Assembly: GCF_009914765.1 (NCBI RefSeq)
Contig: NZ_WYDS01000009.1
Location: forward strand, 62,001 to 126,000
Length of the DNA: 64,000 bases
Origin: Halodesulfovibrio sp. MK-HDV
GTDB taxonomy: Bacteria > Desulfobacterota > Desulfovibrionia > Desulfovibrionales > Desulfovibrionaceae
Direction of reading: 5' to 3'
Translations under genes and position numbers: made by a program
The notes under the pieces: generated by a model
The model's database searches: none
The model's input: the letters and a program-made list of their open reading frames with translations, nothing else
Told to the model about the DNA's origin: nothing
In this document: one piece after another, positions 7,860-11,260 of the stretch
Numbering within the stretch: the stretch's first letter is position 1
Layout: each line of letters opens with the position of its first letter

Positions 7860-8399
7860 CTACTCAGCATGCTTAAGCAAAACTTCATCTCGACCATCAA
7901 TCTCTTCAATCAATACATCGACCTGTTCAGCACGTGCAGTTGCAATCTGCTTGCCCACATAATTAGCTTGAATAGGTAACTCACGATGTCCACGATCTAC
8001 AAGTACCATCAATTCGATACGGCTTGGACGACCGTAATCCAGTACTGCTTCCAGCGCTGCTCTAATGGTTCGGCCTGTAAACAACACATCGTCTACTAAC
8101 AGCAGAGTCTTACCATCGACGCCCGCAGGAATATCAGTTTTGTTGATCATTGGCTGAACATCCAACGTCGTCCAATCATCACGATATAAGTTAATATCCA
8201 GCGAACCGAACTTCACGGTTTTACCCAGCTGCTCTTTTAGAACAGTACGAAGCCGTGCTGCAATATCAACGCCCCTTCTCTGGATACCGACCAGAACAAG
8301 GTCTTCGCACTCGCCGTGATTTTCTATTACCTGAAACGCAAGGCGATCGATTGTGCGCCGCACTTCGTCTTCAGTCATAACAGTTTTAACGTTTCCCAT
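7860..8399 (-). CDS. pyrR: PyrR: bifunctional pyrimidine regulator / uracil phosphoribosyltransferase
   Basis: 179 residues, the normal PyrR length. The PRPP-binding loop LLLVDDVLFTGRTIRAAL is at about residues 92-109, preceded by VGIQRRGVDIAARL, and the C-terminal VLVDRGHRELPIQANYVGK is characteristic. The family converts uracil and PRPP to UMP, and in many bacteria binds pyr mRNA leaders to cause attenuation; no pyr gene is adjacent here. The ATG used has AAAGGA seven bases before it; an upstream in-frame ATG lacks a site. It is convergent with glpT. Confidence 0.92.
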   Translation of the reverse strand: MGNVKTVMTEDEVRRTIDRLAFQVIENHGECEDLVLVGIQRRGVDIAARLRTVLKEQLGKTVKFGSLDINLYRDDWTTLDVQPMINKTDIPAGVDGKTLLLVDDVLFTGRTIRAALEAVLDYGRPSRIELMVLVDRGHRELPIQANYVGKQIATARAEQVDVLIEEIDGRDEVLLKHAE

Positions 8400-8795
8400 A
8401 TTTATGTCCTTTGCTCTGCTTTTTTCCACGAGGAACTAATACCGTGCATAATATCTTTTTTCTTTCATAAAAGAAACATCATCTACGTGCATTCTGTGAC
8501 CTATGTCATGGGAGTTTTATCGTTTTTTTATTATCAATGGCTACCGGTTGACTTTAAGTGCCACGAACTTACTTATTGAATCCTAAGCAGTTGACAACCG
8601 GAACGGTACCCTTTTGAAGTAGTACATTCGTAGCGGTTACTAAAAGCCTTGTCTGTGGTACTATGAGATACTGTAAATCGACTCAGCACCCCACCCTTTT
8701 GGGAAGGCTTCGAAAACACAGCAAGGTATGCTTAAACACCCGTAGAGAGCCAGACTTAACACATCTGAAACTCTGATACGCGGGCTCCATTTCTA
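8400..8795. other. Unassigned 400-bp region between divergent pyrR and the HesB selenoprotein gene
   Basis: No ORF with coding character is seen. The stretch from about 8590 to 8790 has higher GC content than the neighbouring spacers and several short self-complementary blocks, for example CCTT-TTGGG-AAGG near 8695 and GTCTG/CAGAC near 8651 and 8751. A TTGACA sits at its left end. It could encode a structured RNA, but it matched no tRNA, tmRNA, SRP RNA, RNase P RNA or riboswitch pattern I know. Confidence 0.35.
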
Positions 8796-8824
8796 TTGAC
8801 AAAGCTAATAACTGTCTTTACTTG
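8796..8824 (+). promoter_or_regulatory. Possible promoter of the HesB-like selenoprotein gene
   Basis: A perfect -35 TTGACA is followed 17 bases later by a weak -10 (TACTTG). A TGATAT overlaps it at a longer spacing. The strong GGAGG ribosome site of the selenoprotein gene begins 17 bases further on. Confidence 0.4.
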
Positions 8825-8852
8825 ATATGAACAACCTAGTGGAGGAAATTCA

Positions 8853-9167
8853 ATGTTTACATTGACTGAAAACGCCCATAAAGAACTTGCGGCGTACTTT
8901 GCAGATAAGGACAAATCTCCTATCCGCATCTATCTGGCTCCGGGCGGCTGAAGCGGCCCAAAATTGGCATTGGCTCTGGATGAGCCAAACGAAGAAGATT
9001 CCGTATTTGAAGAGAAAGATTTCACTTTCTGCATCAATAAAGACCTCATTGAAAAGTCTGGTAAAATTACCATCGACCTTTCTTACATGGGCTTTGTTGT
9101 AGAGTCTGAGAACCCTCTTGGCGGCGGCAGCTCTTGCGGCAGTTGCTCCAGTGGTTCTTGTGGCTAG
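8853..9167 (+). CDS. HesB/IscA-like selenoprotein with in-frame UGA (Sec33)
   Basis: 104 residues if UGA at 8949-8951 is read as selenocysteine. GGAGG precedes the ATG by seven bases. Residues 1-32 run to IYLAPGG, then Sec, then SGPKLALALDEPNEED and DFTFCINKDL, ending in a Gly/Ser/Cys tail (GGGSSCGSCSSGSCG). The neighbouring paralog has the same length and reads PGGCSGPNLALAMDEPN at the same place, so UGA stands exactly for Cys. HesB/IscA proteins bind or transfer iron-sulfur clusters; HesB-like selenoproteins are a known group in bacterial selenoprotein surveys. The frame stays open and similar to the paralog after UGA, and a SECIS-like hairpin follows, so this is not a pseudogene. selA, selB, selC and selD are not in the window. 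Confidence 0.9.
8970..8988 (+). promoter_or_regulatory. Bacterial SECIS-like hairpin
   Basis: Perfect 7-bp stem TTGGCTC/GAGCCAA with five-base loop TGGAT, beginning 18 bases after the UGA. Bacterial SECIS elements lie inside the coding region just downstream of UGA and usually carry a G among the first two loop bases; here the second loop base is G. The paralog with Cys lacks this perfect stem (GCAATGGATGAGCC instead), which supports the assignment. Confidence 0.78.
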
Positions 9168-9183
9168 ACGAGCTTAGCTTATT

Positions 9184-9217
9184 AAAGGCGACTTCATTTT
9201 TGAAGCCGCCTTTTTTT
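9184..9217 (+). terminator. Terminator after the HesB selenoprotein gene
   Basis: Hairpin AAAGGCG-A-CTTC / GAAG-C-CGCCTTT with a T7 tract, so the two HesB-like genes are separate transcription units. Confidence 0.88.
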
Positions 9218-9290
9218 GTGCCTTATCTATAAAGAGAACTGATAGTAACAAGGAAAAGTTGCGAGACCTATCTATCTGTTACACATCTAT

Positions 9291-9320
9291 TTGACTTTTT
9301 TTCCCCCTGACAGGTATGTT
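9291..9320 (+). promoter_or_regulatory. Promoter of the Cys-containing HesB-like gene
   Basis: TTGACT and TATGTT hexamers with 18-base spacing, 16 bases before the GGAGG ribosome site of the second HesB-like gene. Confidence 0.55.
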
Positions 9321-9351
9321 TCTCTATATAAAACTCGGAGGAACACACACT

Positions 9352-9666
9352 ATGTTCACAGTAACTAAAGACGCTCGAAAATCACTTGATGCACATTTTG
9401 AAGATAGAGAACTTGCATCCATACGTATATACCTTGCTCCCGGCGGTTGCAGCGGCCCAAACCTTGCGTTAGCAATGGATGAGCCTAACGACGACGACAC
9501 AGTTCTTCCTGCTGATCCATACACTTTTTGTATCAACAAGGAACTGCTCGACAAAACAGGTGCTCTTACTGTAGACATCCGCTACGAGGGCTTTGTAATT
9601 GAGTCCGCAAATCCACTTGGTGGTGGCGGAGGCTGCAGCGGTTGTGGCGGCGGTTGCAGCAGCTAG
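9352..9666 (+). CDS. HesB/IscA-like protein, Cys paralog of the selenoprotein
   Basis: 104 residues, the same length as the upstream selenoprotein and alignable without gaps. Cys33 in IYLAPGGCSGPNLALAMDEPN replaces Sec; YTFCINKELLDK and the tail GGGGGCSGCGGGCSS also match. Likely an iron-sulfur cluster carrier or related redox protein, cytoplasmic, by family. The start is the ATG after CGGAGG rather than the in-frame ATG 36 bases upstream, because it aligns with the paralog's start. It has its own promoter and terminator, so the pair may be expressed under different conditions, for example selenium supply (inference). Confidence 0.9.
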   Translation: MFTVTKDARKSLDAHFEDRELASIRIYLAPGGCSGPNLALAMDEPNDDDTVLPADPYTFCINKELLDKTGALTVDIRYEGFVIESANPLGGGGGCSGCGGGCSS

Positions 9667-9687
9667 TCTGATAGGTAAAAATAACCA

Positions 9688-9717
9688 AAGCGGCTTCGTA
9701 AGAAGCCGCTTTTTTTT
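9688..9717 (+). terminator. Terminator after the Cys HesB-like gene
   Basis: Perfect AAGCGGCTTC / GAAGCCGCTT hairpin, four-base loop, T-run. Confidence 0.9.
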
Positions 9718-9737
9718 ATACGTATAGGAGATCTACC

Positions 9738-9953
9738 ATGACATTCAAAGAGTCTGTATTGTACGCAATCAAAATTGCACACAAAGAAAAGAAAGAATTT
9801 GTGGTAGGCAAAGAAGACGGACGATGGGAAGTGCGCGAGCTTGCAGACCCTAGCTCTGATCAAATGTCACCAAGCATTATCGTTACGGGTAAAGGTATCA
9901 AATACCCGGATGATGAATATCTATATGCCCAGCTCATTGAAGAAGGTGCATAA
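9738..9953 (+). CDS. Small conserved-looking hypothetical protein (71 aa)
   Basis: Not recognised. A charged, cytoplasmic-looking 71-residue protein: lysine-rich first third (KIAHKEKKEFVVGKEDGRWE), then a short acidic end. There is no signal peptide, membrane segment or cysteine. TAGGAGATCTACC gives a good ribosome site. It starts just past the HesB terminator and has its own terminator, so it is a real small transcription unit or depends on read-through from the HesB gene. The pattern VGKEDGRWEVREL suggests a small beta-strand fold, but no function can be given. Confidence 0.7.
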   Translation: MTFKESVLYAIKIAHKEKKEFVVGKEDGRWEVRELADPSSDQMSPSIIVTGKGIKYPDDEYLYAQLIEEGA

Positions 9954-10056: not shown

Positions 10057-11007
10057 CTACTTTATAGACTCAAAAACAGCAATTTGCTTGGTTACCCCAA
10101 GAACTGTCTGGGCTTCAACAAATGTAAGGAACTTATAATGCCCCTGCAGCTTGGTTCCTTCCATATAGACACCATTTCTTTCACGTTTAACAGCAATTTG
10201 TTTTACCTTAAAATTGTTGTCGACATAGGAATAAAATACAACTTCAGAGTTAAGGCTTTGTACTTCATACTTATCGTCGTAGGTAGGCTCAATTGCATAA
10301 GTTCTAGCTTGGTCAACCGATATGGAACGGCGTGCAATATTGCTAAGTAGGTTTTCAATTCCTAAAAAGTACTCAGATAGTCCTTTAGATACAGCATAAT
10401 CATGCATTGCTTTAGCGCGTTGCTCTCTTAATGCGTTAGCTTCTCGCTCTTTTTGGGCTTTAGCTTCAGCTCTTTCTTTCGCTCTTTCTTTCGCCTTTTT
10501 TTCCTTTATTTCAGCATATTTTCTTTCATACTCTTTATACGGTGCTAAAAAGTTCCTATCACAAATTTTAAGCTCTTTTTCAAAAAGATCATTCACTTTT
10601 TTATCAGTCTCAACTGAGGAATTGAAATAAAGCGTTACGTCGTACTTAATTTTGGATATTTTTTCGTAATACGCTTCTGTGTACGAAATATCTTCTATCG
10701 ACTCGGCACCTCTTAAGCAAAATTTTAGAGAATTTTTCATGGCGCCTACTGCCATTGCATCATATGTGACCTTGTTAAACTGCTCCTCATTTTGAGCAAT
10801 AATTTTTTTTGCACGAGCTATGTGTTCAGCAAATGACTTTCCATAGATATCTAGGGTTGAGGATTCGTAATCAGGAACAGTTTTAGCAAGCTTAGCGCAT
10901 CTAGCTTTAAGATCCTTAACAGAGCCGTAAAAATCGTCTTGAGAGCGCTGATCTGGCTTATAAGAATAGACTCTGAAGCCCTCAATCAGCATTGCAATTC
11001 TTTCCAT
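10057..11007 (-). CDS. Hypothetical protein, second copy of a duplicated module plus coiled-coil region
   Basis: 316 residues, function not recognised. Residues 1-80 form a module (RIAMLIEGFRVY ... AKLAKTVPDYESST ... SFAEHIARAKKIIAQNEEQF) repeated almost exactly in the upstream fragment at 11030-11260. A middle part follows, then a Lys/Glu/Ala-rich helix about 165-200, probably coiled coil, and a C-terminal beta-rich segment. The reading frame stays open upstream of its ATG through the end of the first copy, and no good ribosome site precedes that ATG (it is inside a Ser/Arg linker). The true start is therefore probably further upstream and lost through a frameshift. Treat as the 3' part of a broken or frameshifted gene. 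Confidence 0.6.
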   Translation of the reverse strand: MERIAMLIEGFRVYSYKPDQRSQDDFYGSVKDLKARCAKLAKTVPDYESSTLDIYGKSFAEHIARAKKIIAQNEEQFNKVTYDAMAVGAMKNSLKFCLRGAESIEDISYTEAYYEKISKIKYDVTLYFNSSVETDKKVNDLFEKELKICDRNFLAPYKEYERKYAEIKEKKAKERAKERAEAKAQKEREANALREQRAKAMHDYAVSKGLSEYFLGIENLLSNIARRSISVDQARTYAIEPTYDDKYEVQSLNSEVVFYSYVDNNFKVKQIAVKRERNGVYMEGTKLQGHYKFLTFVEAQTVLGVTKQIAVFESIK

Positions 11008-11029: not shown

Positions 11030-11260
11030 TTAAACAGCTCTTCGTTTTGAGCAATAATTTTTTTTTGCGAGAGCTATATGTTCAGCGAATGGCTTTCCCA
11101 TAATCTTTACGGTTGAGGATTCGTAATCAGGAACAGTTTTAGCAAGCTCAGCGCACCTAGCTTCATGTGCTTCAGCAGAAGCTTGAAAACTGTTTTGCGA
11201 ACTTTGATTTGGACTATCATACACTCTGAAGCCCTCAATCATTATTGCAATTCTTCTCAT
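11030..11260 (-). pseudogene. First copy of the duplicated module, frameshifted in an A9 tract
   Basis: 76 codons reading MRRIAIMIEGFRVYDSP ... AELAKTVPDYESST ... HIALAKK and then garbage (NYCSKRRAV). The A9 run (11058-11066, T on the plus strand) is A8 in the second copy (10803-10810). Removing one A restores IIAQNEELFNK and joins this copy in frame to the 316-residue ORF. Upstream, the same frame is open for 30 further codons without any start codon and reads as a Ser/Gln/Glu linker, then meets TAA. So this is a middle fragment of a larger protein, not an independent gene. Confidence 0.65.

Follow-up and report, generated by a model that had tools for sequence, protein, structure and literature searches.

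HesB-like selenoproteins (NF038090; TIGR01911) are an established family, exemplified by DVU_1382 of D. vulgaris and MMJJ_08070 of M. maripaludis, and carry selenocysteine in the motif GGU-S/A-GP. Members from Desulfovibrio have been published (PMC1794560, PMC1914089), and the portions of those two papers that were available do not describe a tandem pair of selenocysteine (Sec) and cysteine (Cys) forms. Sec and Cys forms of one protein do occur within one genome in the Methanococcus HrsM system (PMC11097638, in excerpt), and excerpts of PMC1794560 report a Cys-type HesB-like protein with a remnant SECIS in Desulfitobacterium hafniense, a Cys form that descends from a Sec form. Here, we describe a Sec gene followed by its Cys paralogue in Halodesulfovibrio sp. 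MK-HDV, together with the distribution and history of such pairs.

The DNA analyzed (the window) is a stretch of 64,000 nucleotides (contig NZ_WYDS01000009.1, positions 62,001 to 126,000, forward strand), and all coordinates count from its first letter. The features of the locus are as follows.

7860-8399, minus strand: pyrR (pyr operon regulator/uracil phosphoribosyltransferase), divergent neighbour used as synteny marker (NF003549, 231.6 bits; cut-off, 138)
8781-8852, plus strand: conserved stretch, probable promoter and 5' leader including a ribosome-binding site (61/72 positions invariant in six genomes)
8853-9167, plus strand: Sec copy, HesB/IscA-like selenoprotein gene of 104 codons (NF038090; IscA-type fold)
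8949-8951, plus strand: in-frame UGA (TGA), codon 33, almost certainly read as selenocysteine (TGA in 93/93 distinct Sec copies)
8970-8988, plus strand: SECIS-like hairpin of 7 bp with loop UGGAU, 18 nt 3' of the UGA (conservation; frozen codons 41, 42, and 44)
9184-9217, plus strand: terminator hairpin 3' of the Sec gene (z, −4.79 for 9183-9222)
9240-9276, plus strand: TGATAG...ATCTATC inverted repeat 5' of the Cys gene, possible operator (5/6 genomes of the Sec-Cys clade)
9352-9666, plus strand: Cys copy, paralogue with Cys33, 104 codons (NF038090, 100.5 bits)
9687-9720, plus strand: terminator hairpin 3' of the Cys gene (z, −5.61 for 9680-9720)

The Sec frame runs from ATG at 8853 to TAG at 9165-9167, and the Cys frame runs from ATG at 9352 to TAG at 9664-9666. 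A first-pass annotation, made from the letters of the window, had read the two as 104-residue paralogues aligning end to end, with a UGA in the first opposite Cys33 of the second; the alignment bears this out (58% identical, position 33 aligned, TGA at codon 33 of the Sec copy and TGC in its paralogue), and an in-frame UGA aligned with the cysteine of homologues is the mark of a bacterial selenoprotein. The perfect 7-bp stem that it had placed 18 nt after the UGA was reproduced at that distance (8970-8976 paired with 8982-8988, loop at 8977-8981), and, again as it had claimed, no hairpin forms at the equivalent place in the Cys copy. In bacteria, the SECIS element is a hairpin directly downstream of the UGA with a G in its loop, and the hairpin seen here has both properties.

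Support for this hairpin comes from conservation, not from folding energy, which is unremarkable (z, −1.61, with 12/200 shuffles equally good; equivalent Cys-copy segment, z, −1.00, with 29/200). Its five inner pairs form in 93/93 distinct Sec copies, and the outer two form in 38% and 58% (full 7 bp, 29/93); among 104 Cys copies, the inner pairs are found at frequencies of 21% to 86%. Across the 81 loci with both forms, pairing was better in the Sec copy in 73, equal in 3, and worse in 5. Codon 42 is CTG in 93/93 Sec copies, codon 44 is GAG in 91/91 Glu codons, and codon 41 is GCT in 91/93; all three vary among Cys copies, and the silent freezing is confined to Sec copies. Codon 33 is TGA in every Sec copy, and 93 TGC and 11 TGT were counted among the 104 Cys codons extracted (104/105 Cys rows; L119 was left out). 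The 93 Sec copies share descent and are therefore not 93 independent events, but the contrast with their neighbours in the same genomes holds.

The genome of the window (4.17 Mb, 97% complete) encodes tRNA-Sec (84.6 bits; gathering score, 47) together with SelA (630.3 bits), SelB (385.6 bits), and SelD (344.4 bits), all over their cut-offs, and its SelD gene also contains an in-frame TGA. The two ways in which the first-pass reading could have failed, absence of selA/B/C/D and a sequencing error in the UGA, are thus ruled out by the genome and ruled against by the TGA in all 93 Sec copies, respectively. With the machinery present and the inner pairs formed in every Sec copy, Sec insertion at UGA 33 of the first gene appears close to certain.

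Both copies belong to NF038090 (IscA_HesB_Se; cut-off, 85 bits), with 118.1 bits for the Sec copy and 100.5 bits for the Cys copy, and both fall below TIGR01911 (HesB_rel_seleno; cut-off, 66.35 bits; 49.3 and 35.7 bits, respectively). PF01521 (Fe-S_biosyn; gathering score, 26.3) was matched by the Sec copy at 30.0 bits and by the Cys copy at no E value up to 1, and neither copy reached the equivalog cut-offs of IscA, SufA, or ErpA. Among the 193 Foldseek matches listed for the predicted structure (pLDDT, 83.6; tail 92-104 uncertain), 10 had an E value of ≤0.001, with IscA first and SufA and DsrR included. Position 33 aligns with the cysteine of the IscA GCSG motif, which we take to be its conserved Cys35. 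Near the C terminus, Cys95 is invariant, and Cys98 and Cys103 are nearly so (40 rows). The A-type iron-sulfur proteins (IscA, SufA, ErpA) and DsrR thus share their fold with the present proteins, but the Gly/Ser-rich tail here spaces its cysteines as CxxC...C and does not match IscA, which has three conserved cysteines in the pattern C...CxC. On the structural model, binding of an iron-sulfur cluster or a metal may be expected.

To describe the spread of the pair, 114 distinct loci were collected with queries from one taxonomic family (one search kept 80 of its 88 matches), so the counts speak for that family and not for other taxa; most named locus records carry names of the family, and a few bear other labels (e.g., L059, L071, and L109). 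The two forms occur together in 81/114 loci, with either one first: 51 Sec-Cys, 21 Cys-Sec, and 9 with both forms plus a third copy (position 33 being Glu in 3, Ala in 3, and Cys in 3). The remainder are 5 Ser-Sec, 7 Sec alone, and 21 Cys alone. All 10 genomes of the genus that were searched have one TGA copy and one stop-less copy side by side (6 Sec-Cys, 4 Cys-Sec). Across the pair, loci of the genus match named Halodesulfovibrio records with full identity (L047, L048, and L049, grouping with G142, G108, and G149), which places them in Halodesulfovibrio. In the taxonomic family as a whole, 139/149 genomes have a match (136 over the cut-off) and 130/149 have tRNA-Sec; counted by hand, a TGA copy of ≥80 bits occurs in 115/130 genomes with tRNA-Sec and in 4/19 without it, all four of these being ≤75% complete. 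Among the 13 genomes without tRNA-Sec that are ≥85% complete, by the same hand count, such a TGA copy occurs in 0/13 and a stop-less copy over the cut-off in 11/13. A Sec copy is the sole one in several genomes (e.g., G017, G037, G011, and G020), and in others (G117 and G140), the copies are widely separated on a single contig.

A divergent pyrR lies upstream in 76/93 distinct Sec-bearing loci, in both gene orders, and 2 others are too short to judge. It adjoins 2/21 lone Cys loci; of the 11 loci from genomes without tRNA-Sec, 9 have a stop-less match, and 1/9 is beside pyrR. With so few pyrR neighbours, the Cys copies kept in genomes without tRNA-Sec may belong to another lineage and need not be survivors of pairs.

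Several loci carry extra copies beside the Sec gene in which position 33 is Glu, Ala, or Ser. They are third copies at L034, L036, L037, L039, L042, and L046 and first copies at L052 to L055 and L058; lacking Sec or Cys at the key site, these proteins probably have another role. One genome of 2.5 Mb (G001) has nine family matches, of which one is over the cut-off and three contain an in-frame TGA. In the window, a 71-residue frame at 9738-9953, 3' of the Cys gene, reaches no family cut-off (one Pfam match below cut-off; E, 0.23) and occupies the same place in four further Halodesulfovibrio loci (L047, L048, L129, and L131). Beyond it, the minus-strand frames 10057-11007 and 11030-11260, neither with a family over the cut-off, share nearly the same first 68 residues, the second ending after about 67 residues and resembling a tandem copy cut short. 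Between 25605 and 30923 (5.3 kb), a tRNA-Pro(TGG) gene occurs six times with a single sequence; all six have comparable upstream boxes and comparable GCTCACAGT...ACTGTGAGC terminators, an unusual amplification of a single tRNA. Rfam at gathering scores reported only six tRNAs in the 64-kb window and no known RNA family near the pair.

Silent-site constraint was measured in six Halodesulfovibrio genomes with the Sec-Cys order (15 genome pairs). Invariant positions number 89/351 at 8430-8780, 61/72 at 8781-8852, 286/315 in the Sec frame, 23/34 in the terminator of the Sec gene, and 181/312 in the Cys frame, and third positions are invariant in 79/104 Sec codons versus 22/104 Cys codons. Synonymous differences per site are 0.07 to 0.19 for the Sec gene, 0.32 to 0.68 for the Cys gene, and 0.54 to 0.78 for pyrR; for EF-Tu, they are 0.13 to 0.26, with 272/397 third positions invariant. 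Within the clade of the window, silent sites of the Sec gene are thus as constrained as those of EF-Tu. Few amino acid changes separate its versions between species (pN, 0 to 0.025), and the Cys gene is under purifying selection (dN, 0.04 to 0.11, versus dS, 0.45 to 1.15).

High codon adaptation was rejected as the cause of the frozen Sec gene: the codon adaptation index relative to EF-Tu is 0.460 for the Sec gene and 0.467 for the Cys gene, and the Sec value was reached by 18/127 length-matched background pieces. With indices so similar, the contrast between the copies is not accounted for by codon choice alone. A stable fold of the whole Sec mRNA was likewise set aside as weak (z, −2.14, with 3/100 shuffles as good; Cys mRNA, z, 0.12). 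The freezing could stem from high expression, from constraint on the mRNA, or from a recent spread of this block; the limits of the freezing fall near the promoter and the terminator, which favours constraint as the probable cause. Outside the clade, synonymous differences were lower in the Sec gene than in the Cys gene in 140/175 genome pairs and lower than in pyrR in only 73/127, so that a family-wide rule was unsupported against pyrR and the strong freezing is local. Silent constraint like that of EF-Tu, reached without comparable codon adaptation, suggests that the mRNA or its expression may matter unusually there.

The history of the pairs was followed in a careful tree of 79 rows, built from 39/81 paired loci after exclusion of six long rows, of the Ser/Ala/Glu copies, and of loci with a Sec copy >88% identical to that of a locus already included. 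This tree, whose bootstrap was incompletely settled, has 15 changes between Sec and Cys, at least 10 of them forced by well-supported branches; a single Sec/Cys split appeared in 0% of 200 bootstrap trees, and enforcing one Sec clade cost 279 log-likelihood units (p-AU, 2.9e-66). With 209 rows, a quick tree gave 18 changes, 6 to 7 of them forced. The trees are unrooted and span 92 columns, so repeated change is visible in them and its direction is not. Judged by these trees, the Sec and Cys copies do not descend as two ancient sister families, and the pairs appear to have been remade repeatedly, by duplication or gene conversion, both of which fit.

Copies at one locus can be nearest kin (85% identical at L072 and 82% at L017). 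In Halodesulfovibrio genomes with the Sec-Cys order, the Cys copy groups with the Halodesulfovibrio Sec copies (99/86), and in those with the Cys-Sec order, the Cys copies form another group. Sec-Cys distance is smaller within a genome than across genomes in 180/246 comparisons and larger in 55, and exact runs reach 44 nt, with a median longest run of 13 nt. In 69/81 pairs (66/81 with Cys outgroups only), the Cys copy lies at the greater distance from other loci, the pairs not being independent. From locus and rate, the direction would be from Sec to Cys. In the available part of PMC1794560, Cys-to-Sec events are said to outnumber Sec-to-Cys events, and an excerpt of PMC13188914 describes the change from Sec to Cys as rare.

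Each gene had also been assigned a promoter and a terminator of its own in the first-pass annotation. The terminators stand, as both hairpins fold well, although a terminator consensus scan listed only the one after the Cys gene; the separate promoters are less secure, with 3 promoter-like sites found versus 3.1 expected. Among the six species, 25/63 bases before the Cys gene are invariant versus 61/72 before the Sec gene. Terminator-like hairpins were found in 48/81 gaps between Sec and Cys genes, with about 8 expected from shuffles (36/58 Sec-Cys gaps, 5.5 expected; 12/23 Cys-Sec gaps, 2.5 expected; the table of 81 includes L118 with an erroneous length of −333), a pattern in keeping with the two genes being transcribed separately in many lineages. 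In six Cys-Sec pairs, the gap is 16 to 19 nt and contains no terminator.

Upstream of the Cys gene, the inverted repeat may belong to a promoter under local control. A search for the TGATAG/ATCTATC pattern in the window's own genome found 1 site, the known one, and the reversed control found 3, so the pattern alone is near chance; two further matches lie elsewhere in genomes G057 and G149. The search of the genomes returned no regulon and no link of the repeat to selenium, and a selenium-responsive regulator or regulon for the pair was looked for and not found. In 11/114 loci (L101, L109, L114, L115, L118, L120, L121, L122, L124, L125, and L126), a divergent TetR-type gene (PF00440, 59.9 bits) separates pyrR from the Sec-Cys pair and is a candidate regulator of the pair there.

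We think it rather probable that the locus encodes a selenoprotein of IscA/HesB fold as the main form and a derived Cys paralogue as its backup. The UGA at codon 33 of the first gene would be decoded as selenocysteine via the hairpin directly downstream, and the Sec gene would be the old, slowly changing occupant of the locus beside pyrR. Cys copies would have arisen next to it repeatedly, either by local duplication with change of UGA to UGC or UGU or by gene conversion, and, once made, would evolve faster. The Sec form would do the main work, and the Cys form would supply that function, or one close to it, in cells limited in selenium or in Sec decoding. The conservation of the Sec gene and its SECIS, the machinery, the repeated formation of pairs, and the purifying selection on the Cys gene are observed; we infer the direction from Sec to Cys, the backup role, an iron-sulfur or metal function, and any selenium-dependent control, and the several genomes with a Sec copy alone indicate that a backup is not always needed. 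That translation really ends at this UGA, or that the codon is a sequencing error, the first gene then being a pseudogene, has nothing in its favour but the stop codon itself; the invariant TGA, the frozen SECIS codons, the low pN, and the full Sec machinery rule it out with a negligible residue of doubt. The repeated birth of pairs would be unnecessary if a single ancient duplication had been masked by later gene conversion, to which tandem neighbours are prone and for which the smaller distances within genomes and the longest exact runs could speak. Both gene orders at the pyrR locus, a median longest run of just 13 nt, and the failure of the two Halodesulfovibrio Cys groups to join in the tree make us doubt such a history.

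How the two forms are used admits further readings. The selenium-dependent swap of isoforms suggested in the first-pass annotation is possible: a selenium-repressed Cys promoter would let the Cys form replace the Sec form under selenium shortage, as in methanogens. We rate this as less likely than not, since the terminator of each gene in the window, the excess of terminator-like hairpins in the gaps, the repeat in 5/6 clade genomes, and the selenium-controlled Sec and Cys forms of Methanococcus (excerpts of PMC11097638) are offset by the six closely spaced pairs without a terminator, by the regulon and regulator that were not found, and by a repeat rarer in its own genome than the reversed control. 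Close spacing in several lineages would instead suit two proteins made together, with different or joint jobs or in mixed Sec/Cys oligomers like those of other A-type pairs, as would the faster divergence of Cys copies and the third copies with Ser, Ala, or Glu. We regard joint production as unlikely, given that aligned Cys copies retain Cys33 and the C-terminal cysteines and that genomes without tRNA-Sec retain the stop-less copy alone. Very improbable, to our mind, is a scheme with the Sec transcript as a selenium sensor, its whole length between promoter and terminator being frozen in the window's clade because how efficiently UGA 33 is decoded alters its fate (stability, termination, or an RNA product) and thereby controls the neighbouring Cys gene, the Cys copy being re-created adjacently because only neighbours could be controlled. 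A main Sec form with a Cys backup remains our preferred account.

That HesB-like selenoproteins were already known, as the first-pass annotation had noted, is confirmed by DVU_1382 and NF038090; compared with these proteins, the present locus adds a neighbouring Cys paralogue and stays under the TIGR01911 cut-off. The Methanococcus system likewise keeps Sec and Cys forms in one genome, but it concerns other proteins, and HrsM represses the Cys genes there (PMC11097638, in excerpt), whereas no such regulator was identified here. Desulfitobacterium hafniense is a case of replacement (PMC1794560, in excerpt), and here the Sec and Cys copies stand together. Among the matches listed, no description of a tandem Sec/Cys HesB pair was recognized in the open literature; HesB-like selenoproteins and the selenium-controlled isogenes of methanogens are known, and a widespread, re-formed tandem pair was not met in the parts of that literature searched. 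Why cells retain costly selenocysteine where cysteine often suffices is an open question. Many separately formed Sec/Cys pairs would offer natural replicates for comparing the fitness, kinetics, and regulation of both forms, and, coming from free-living sulfate reducers, they bear on when selenium is preferred over sulfur.
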